Of a stretch of 64,000 nt of DNA, positions 53,802 to 54,021 are shown in pieces (position 1 is the first letter of the stretch; each line of letters starts with the position of its first letter). The translations under genes were made by a program, and so were the position numbers. The stretch lies in NCBI GenBank assembly GCA_016194905.1, contig JACQAP010000012.1:62001-126000 (forward strand), given 5' to 3'. The stretch is from Betaproteobacteria bacterium. Lineage in GTDB: Bacteria > Pseudomonadota > Gammaproteobacteria > Burkholderiales > JACQAP01. Under the pieces are notes generated by a model. That model did not search any database. It was not told the origin of the DNA and worked only from the letters and a program-made list of their open reading frames with translations.

Positions 53802-53830
53802 TTGCGAAGCCCGAAAAATCTGCTTATAGT
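53802..53830 (+). promoter_or_regulatory. Sigma-70 promoter of the leuA leader
   Basis: TTGCGA (53802-53807), a 17-base spacer and TATAGT (53825-53830, five of six). The predicted start is at about 53837, right at the ATG of the leader peptide at 53838. Confidence 0.6.
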
Positions 53831-53837
53831 CGGGCAC

Positions 53838-53924
53838 ATGGTTTCCCAACAGCACGGCCAATCCGGTCTTTTCCTTGTCAGCAATCTGCTGACCGGCCTG
53901 CTGCTGCGCCCCGCGCGCACATAA
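53838..53924 (+). CDS. Leucine-rich leader peptide of leuA (attenuation leader)
   Basis: A 28-codon frame with an ATG seven bases after a -10 box and a TAA at 53922-53924. Seven residues are Leu, clustered as LFL, LL and LLL; five of the codons are CTG. The peptide reads [16 protein letters not shown] at its start and [12 protein letters not shown] at its end. Runs of the end-product codon directly before a leucine gene are the mark of ribosome-mediated attenuation. The leader may be leaderless, as in alphaproteobacterial trpL. Between TAA and leuA are ~97 bases with possible pairing (AAGCC near 53954 with GGCTT near 53994) but no T-run. Confidence 0.65.
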
Positions 53925-54021
53925 ACTAACTCCAACCTCGCAGTACCCAAGCCCGCCAGACAAAGCCCAACCAGGCAAAGCCCGGCGGTGGTGGCTTATC
54001 AACAATATGCGAGACCATGAC

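Follow-up and report, generated by a model that had tools for sequence, protein, structure and literature searches.

Introduction

In the textbook form of leader-peptide attenuation, an open reading frame (ORF) led by a Shine-Dalgarno (SD) sequence and a terminator with a U-run are both needed. The enterobacterial leuL attenuator consists of a short, SD-led and Leu-rich leader peptide which precedes leuA and has its run of Leu codons near its end. Bordetella, in which one of the systems considered below was described, is a member of the order Burkholderiales. In addition to these, several described leaders share one or more characteristics with the locus that forms the subject of this work, and they are summarised here. 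In Streptomyces lividans, LeuL1 is a leaderless Leu leader located before leuA without a typical terminator (PMC8079986), and in the actinobacterial LEU element a stem is formed between the Leu codons and the SD of leuA, together with a pseudoknot (PMC1262725). In Bordetella pertussis, CruR (bp2923), a DUF2946 protein, is a copper-sensing upstream ORF acting via translation arrest, where the stalled ribosome keeps Rho off and a C>G bubble is present at the mapped Rho terminator (PMC9426467). The RNA of the rhizobial trpL (rnTrpL) starts with the ATG of its leader ORF, and it is an attenuation product that is also trans-acting (PMC7298713). Lastly, LeuL of Campylobacter jejuni, a leader of 28 amino acids detected by screening for small ORFs preceded by a ribosome site, is encoded by an RNA which reportedly ends shortly past the stop codon (PMC3847290).

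The locus examined here lies in a stretch of 64,000 nucleotides of a Betaproteobacteria bacterium from the order Burkholderiales (contig JACQAP010000012.1), which is referred to in its entirety as the window. An earlier reading made from the letters of this stretch (the sequence-only reading) had described a Leu-rich leader ORF before leuA and had interpreted it as a means of controlling leuA by leucyl-tRNA, perhaps at the level of translation. The observation is confirmed by the present work, and the interpretation is partly supported.

The leader ORF and its surroundings in the window

Translation of the reading frame bears out that the leader ORF contains seven Leu codons, grouped as LFL, LL and LLL, and it is situated between leuA and the gene pssA, whose stop is at position 53786. 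The positions of the leader ORF and of the other features of this locus are given in Table 1. The -10 box was found as it had been reported, at a distance of 7 nt from the leader ATG, and the promoter to which it belongs is the only sigma-70-like match in the region 53000-54700, for which shuffled sequences gave on average 0.4 matches. The SD of leuA, as read by eye, is weak (GCGAG), in agreement with the claim that this gene lacks a good ribosome site. Further, inspection of the plus strand of the window stretch around the leader gave no U-run terminator, where the absence of a T-run had also been noted earlier. The spacer hairpin that had been proposed to fold over the start of leuA (AAGCCCGCC with GGCGG..GGCTT) does appear in the predicted fold of the window, but it ends about 25 nt 5' of the leuA ATG and does not cover the start; in all other respects the earlier description of the locus is correct.

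Table 1. Positions of the leader ORF, the promoter elements, the predicted RNA features and leuA in the window
Feature	Position	Strand	Remarks
-35-like hexamer TTGCGA	53802..53807	+	17 nt upstream of the -10 box
-10 box TATAGT	53825..53830	+	7 nt from the end of the box to the leader ATG
Leader ORF (leuL), 28 codons and stop	53838..53924	+	ATG at 53838, TAA at 53922-53924; probably leaderless
Hairpin P1 (GTCAGCA atc TGCTGAC)	53877..53893	+	Immediately 5' of the Leu run; predicted fold
Presumed regulatory Leu run, CTG CTG CTG	53898..53906	+	Between P1 and P2
Hairpin P2 (TGCGC cccgc GCGCA)	53905..53919	+	Overlaps the peptide end; predicted fold
C-rich, G-free tract	53925..53939	+	Candidate core of a Rho-loading (rut) site; adjoins the stop
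Hairpin P3, without U-run	53949..53997	+	Predicted fold
leuA, long ('type 2') 2-isopropylmalate synthase	54022..55734	+	ATG at 54022; presumed target

No match at the Rfam gathering threshold was obtained at the leader of the window or in 20 loci, and at E values up to 10 the leader loci gave only two unrelated matches (E 4.2 and 8.3). The sole Rfam gathering match in the window is a tRNA gene at positions 21222-21294 of the plus strand.

Distribution of the leader upstream of leuA

At the threshold chosen, LeuA was matched in 124 of the 130 genomes of the order, and the sample consisted of 145 leuA upstream regions, 144 of them full length, from 117 genomes. A strict detector demanded an ATG, a -10 box (at least 4 of 6 bases matching) 5-9 nt away from it, and an ORF of 14-50 codons containing no fewer than 4 Leu codons, with an LL near the end. 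It matched 75 of the 144 regions, whereas 20 dinucleotide shuffles gave 2.4 on average and the reverse complement gave 3 of 144. The curated family was defined by the C-terminal end of the peptide and checked by hand (76 regions found by a regular expression, from which 5 were dropped and to which 3 were added by hand), and it comprises 74 leaders before leuA in 72 of the 117 genomes, the other 45 genomes being without a curated leader. The leaders of this family precede a short type-1 leuA in 57 of 102 regions and a long type-2 leuA in 17 of 43. In G001, G002 and G003, which belong to the same genus as the window genome, the ORF is conserved together with its terminal LLLRPAR and the -10 box TATAGT; conservation of the peptide end had been named as a check in the sequence-only reading.

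An exact core pattern of the leader was found in 31 of the 130 genomes, as against 3 matches for the reversed pattern that served as a control. When the places of the core pattern were compared with those of the LeuA matches, 27 of the 32 distinct places were located just before leuA and five were not (G113:C15, G026:C8, G102:C77, G126:C4 and G088:C27). It may be argued that leuA promoters merely bear a leaderless ORF of this kind and that no regulation is involved. However, the occurrence of the leader before leuA across the order, in conjunction with its Leu codons, hairpins and tract, as well as the placement of the core pattern described above, stand against such an explanation, which we regard as very improbable.

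The same leader is also present on a contig of Chitinimonas sp. BJB300 (L113), and Methylobacillus gramineus has a leader in L064. When 185 class-wide genomes were searched with a covariance model (R1) at an E value of 0.01, 24 of them had matches. Among the 30 R1 loci that were fetched, leuA is present in six (L245, L246, L247, L248, L250 and L272), of which one is from the window genome and the others are from five genomes belonging to other orders, and in all six of them the leader ORF precedes leuA; the remaining R1 loci, in which there is no leuA match, are probably false hits. The class-wide genomes outside the order with a Leu leader before leuA are G214, G138, G252, G237 and G212. Inspection by eye revealed no ilv leader before ilvI.

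Other recurrent elements were also observed before leuA. A second element, of the CGACTGCGCAACGGTTGCCTGGCC or CTACCGATCGGTTGCC kind, precedes type-2 leuA and is sometimes located within another Leu-rich ORF; it is seen between the leader and leuA in L142, L009, L007 and L134, and also in L046, L053, L055 and L067. In Pseudomonas-type loci (L081, L087, L088, L091, L095, L096, L109 and L114), type-2 leuA is preceded by yet another recurrent ORF, of the MKT..TLILLRQHRSLCLVSARLPS type, whose ATG is preceded at a distance of 7 nt by a TAGGGT-like hexamer and which is perhaps another leaderless leader. A short Leu-rich ORF, e.g. MNQTTYDLDLRLLALA, is likewise present upstream of Halomonas-type leuA (L098, L111 and L119).

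Promoter geometry and the start of the leader RNA

In 69 of the 74 leaders a -10 box is located 4-11 nt before the ATG, whereas for each of eight shifted positions the count was between 0 and 9 of 74; the start having been chosen by the best -10 box favours this result. The commonest gaps between the box and the ATG are 6 nt (27 leaders) and 7 nt (25 leaders), and of the 59 leaders with a single ATG, 54 have the -10 box. A -35 element resembling TTGACA (at least 4 of 6 bases, at 15-19 nt from the -10 box) is found in 36 of the 74 members. None of the 74 leaders has an SD 4-mer (GGAG, GAGG or AGGA) at SD distance before its ATG, and immediately 5' of the ATG 74% of them have a C and 18% a T. 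Due to the known spacing of sigma-70 promoters and the observed -10 gap, transcription is expected to start at the A of the ATG or one base before it. The leader ORF is, on these sequence characteristics, probably leaderless, and the earlier claim that the mRNA would begin at or next to the AUG fits this geometry.

The Leu run and the hairpins P1 and P2

All 74 leaders have at least three Leu codons within six codons, Leu being part of the definition of the family, and Leu accounts for 40% of the last 12 codons as against 14% of codons 2-13. The leaders thus have clustered codons for the regulated amino acid before a gene of its biosynthesis, as is the case for leader-peptide attenuators. The Leu run is followed by P2, a GC hairpin over the peptide end, in 68 of the 74 leaders as judged by an arm-sequence rule; for the other six a different hairpin is the best one. 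P2 has the form UGCGC-N3-5-GCGCG, and its variants include GCGCC/GGCGC, UGCCC/GGGCA, UUGCGC/GCGCAA and UGCGU/ACGCG. With synonymous recoding based on codon usage, the mean z value, taken across leaders that are not independent tests, was -1.66 for the P2 region, -0.80 for the P1 region and -0.40 (median +0.56) for the 5' part of the leader. Single leaders with p<0.05 numbered 3 of 74 for P2 and 16 of 74 for P1 under this null, and 8 of 74 and 9 of 74, respectively, under another recoding null.

In L029, L060 and L272 the stop codon of the leader lies inside P2 and the hairpin is still present, so that what is conserved seems to be the hairpin and not the end of the peptide. These cases are of importance for the possibility that the end LLLRxAR is an arrest peptide, which would act via the exit tunnel to stall the ribosome, sensing either free leucine or some other ligand. 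The C-terminal LLLR.AR is indeed frequent. However, the residues after the Leu run vary while the hairpin stays, as exemplified by LLRASAN with a GCAA loop (L161), by LLLPPRGR (L206) and by LLLLRR, where the hairpin contains the stop (L029, and likewise L272), and it is hardly credible in view of them that the leaders act as arrest peptides.

P1 has at least 5 bp in 53 of the 74 leaders. A strong P1-like hairpin is present in 42 of 74, compared with 24-32 of 74 in three control positions upstream; 30 of these 42 end 6-12 nt before P2, and all three reading-frame registers are represented among them. For the analysis of covariation, 66 of 73 non-duplicate segments were aligned, the seven others (L231, L011, L016, L144, L029, L183 and L222), six of which have an odd spacing or register, having been omitted by hand, which favours column-wise pairing in this test. 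In the alignment, 9 of the 10 pairs of P1 show changes on both sides, and 62% of the cells are paired. The covariation score for P1 and P2 together was 0.250, in comparison to 0.165 (sd 0.012) for shuffles, none of which reached it in 500, and to at most 0.152 in slid versions; the relatedness of the sequences is not removed by the shuffles. Two of the five covariation measures, viz. the double-change pairs and the pair types, were unremarkable, as they were reached by 89 and 71 of 500 shuffles, and from the 66-sequence alignment RNAalifold recovered only 3 pairs of P2 and none of P1. P1 is weakly enriched as a mere hairpin; the case for it is based on covariation and recoding, and these lend moderate support to P1 as a real element.

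The C-rich tract, P3 and terminators

Across the family, the first 15 nt past the stop consist of about 51% C and about 4% G. A C-rich, G-poor stretch in or after an upstream ORF, as in Rho-dependent attenuators of the CruR type, was found for 57 of the 74 leaders and was missing for 17, whereas it followed 1 of 52 leuA stops and 1 of 82 long ORFs of the window; with a length of only about 15 nt, the tract is short for a full rut site. The difference between C and G in 78-nt segments is above zero in 95-99% of the 74 leaders over the leader and tract, and in near half outside of them, a part of this bubble being due to the codons of the ORF. In the window, the corresponding 78-nt bubble lies at 53886-53963 (C 44%, G 21%). 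In terms of folding, the RNA at 0..45 after the stop is less folded than its shuffles (mean z +0.5), the P3 region (+15..+60 after the stop) has a mean z of -1.6, and the RNA beyond it, up to leuA, is near the level of the shuffles.

A loose match to an intrinsic terminator was obtained for only 9 of the 74 leaders, and P3 is mostly without a U-run. When 84 leaders of any type were analysed by a script, 54 had the tract only, 3 a terminator only, 2 had both and 25 had neither. The loci with a terminator only (L203, L226 and L135), which are from two families, have a GC hairpin with a U-run and no tract, and in the loci with both (L007 and L018) the U-runs are weak; the tract and the terminator are thus not cleanly exclusive of each other. 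In L133 and L008, a GC hairpin with a U-rich tail is seen by eye, and the tract is absent. These loci provide hints that some lineages might use an intrinsic terminator where others carry the C tract. The C-rich tract and the presence of intrinsic terminators in a few loci together point to premature termination of transcription, which would most likely be brought about by Rho. As a separate observation, the Leu ORFs of L203 (in G076) and L226 (in G033) are of the MLMNFSPLTGLLLLALSLKLGAGKA type and appear leaderless, and in them a GC hairpin and U-run replace the C tract.

Pairing of the leader with downstream RNA and the start of leuA

If leuA was controlled by classical transcription attenuation, then segments of the leader should refold between a terminator and an antiterminator depending upon the position at which the ribosome stalls. 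A leader peptide with control codons and the presence of several hairpins are in accordance with this, and so are the GC hairpins and U-runs between the leader and leuA in L203, L226 and L135. However, as noted above, terminator-like matches are limited to a small part of the family and are absent from the plus strand in the window. Moreover, in duplex tests in which cognate and noncognate partners were compared, five segments of the leader (viz. the C tract, the P1 region, the Leu run with P2, the 3' arm of P2 and the 5' part of the leader) showed no cognate pairing with their own downstream region (mean z -0.08 to +0.22, n 73), while in the same kind of test the control arms of P1 (-0.64) and P3 (-0.95) responded and those of the near-invariant P2 hardly did so (-0.20), all of these values being averages from which single loci could differ. 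Based on these results, we consider classical switching to be distinctly unlikely.

Alternatively, the control could be exerted on translation, with a structure in the leader hiding the start of leuA until a stalled ribosome frees it, as in the actinobacterial LEU element, and the sequence-only reading had leaned towards control at this level. The absence of a U-run would agree with such translational attenuation, and in the predicted fold of the window UGCGAG, at the weak SD of leuA, is paired with CUCGCAGU, which lies 3' of the leader stop. Related helices at the base are present when the RNA after the stop is folded for G003 and G084, but no helix of this type is seen in the fold of G001. 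Further, when segments of the leader and of the RNA after the stop were paired with the leuA start, the family-wide mean z values ranged from -0.16 to +0.23, and for the Leu run and the SD region of leuA the mean z was 0.01 (n 65). The leuA genes also have an SD motif of at least 4 bases in 58 of the 67 members with a placed start, the placing rule having favoured an SD, and P3, which is conserved, is located 5' of the leuA start. The lack of family-wide pairing of the leader with either the downstream RNA or the leuA start argues against both classical switching and sequestration of the SD, and control of translation through a structure over the leuA start is, in the family as a whole, less supported than had been supposed and in our view unlikely. 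The folds described above indicate that a translational component may be possible in the window's own genus.

Proposed mechanism of the attenuator

The reading which we favour, and to which we would give a somewhat better than even chance, is that the leader constitutes a leucine attenuator, in which the supply of leucyl-tRNA would be read out through Rho-dependent termination before leuA. The ribosome-mediated control by leucyl-tRNA that the sequence-only reading had predicted is compatible with the Leu run and the RNA features around it. After transcription has started at or next to the ATG, a ribosome would load on the bare 5' end of the RNA. If leucyl-tRNA is plentiful, then this ribosome would cross the Leu run and depart at the stop codon, the C-rich and G-poor tract after it would become exposed, and Rho could load on it and terminate transcription before leuA. 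However, if leucyl-tRNA is short, the lead ribosome would stall on the Leu codons, P2 (and P1, where it is present) would be held open, and the stalled ribosome would hinder Rho from wrapping the leader and the tract or from reaching the polymerase, so that leuA would be transcribed. Because a ribosome on the last Leu codon ends several nt short of the tract, the blocking would have to be steric or to cover that part of the site which lies in the leader. As to the hairpins, P1 and P2 may perhaps delay the ribosome on the Leu codons or cause the polymerase to pause, and P3 is perhaps a stable end which remains after trimming.

Comparison with known systems and significance

A literature search, which extended to sources other than subscription papers, revealed no description of the present leader family. 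Older comparative surveys of proteobacterial attenuators may mention betaproteobacterial candidates. We tentatively conclude, with a confidence slightly below even, that these leaders represent a widespread and undescribed class of leucine attenuators, occurring in proteobacteria of the Burkholderiales type and in certain further orders of the class and made up of a leaderless Leu ORF, a GC hairpin into which the Leu run extends (in many cases preceded by a second hairpin) and a G-poor C tract, in which Rho would replace the switch between terminator and antiterminator and a few lineages would have been converted to an intrinsic terminator. The same task that textbook attenuation performs would then seem to be accomplished, in a large group of bacteria, without either an SD-led ORF or a U-run terminator. 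The leaders also provide a natural set of variants for testing how a leaderless ORF, codon starvation and Rho are coupled, and these variants further bear on the question whether lineages swap Rho for intrinsic terminators.

With the enterobacterial leuL, the present family shares a Leu-rich peptide before leuA and a Leu run near the end of it, whereas it differs in being probably leaderless, in being mostly without a U-run terminator, in showing no detected antiterminator pairing and in having no match in Rfam. The likeness to the actinobacterial LeuL1 and LEU consists of a leaderless Leu peptide before leuA and the absence of a typical terminator (PMC8079986, PMC1262725). However, the base stem of LEU is not met with here, as indicated by the result for the Leu run and the leuA SD, and the description of LEU includes no C tract. 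The C. jejuni LeuL resembles the leader of the window in its length of 28 amino acids, its C-terminal Leu codons and its position before leu genes (PMC3847290). The rhizobial trpL is likewise a leaderless leader of an amino acid gene, with Trp there in place of Leu here. Lastly, in comparison to CruR, the present leader is a short ORF with Leu codons and not a copper-sensing DUF2946 protein, but the two have in common an upstream ORF, a C>G bubble and a model in which a stalled ribosome excludes Rho (PMC9426467).
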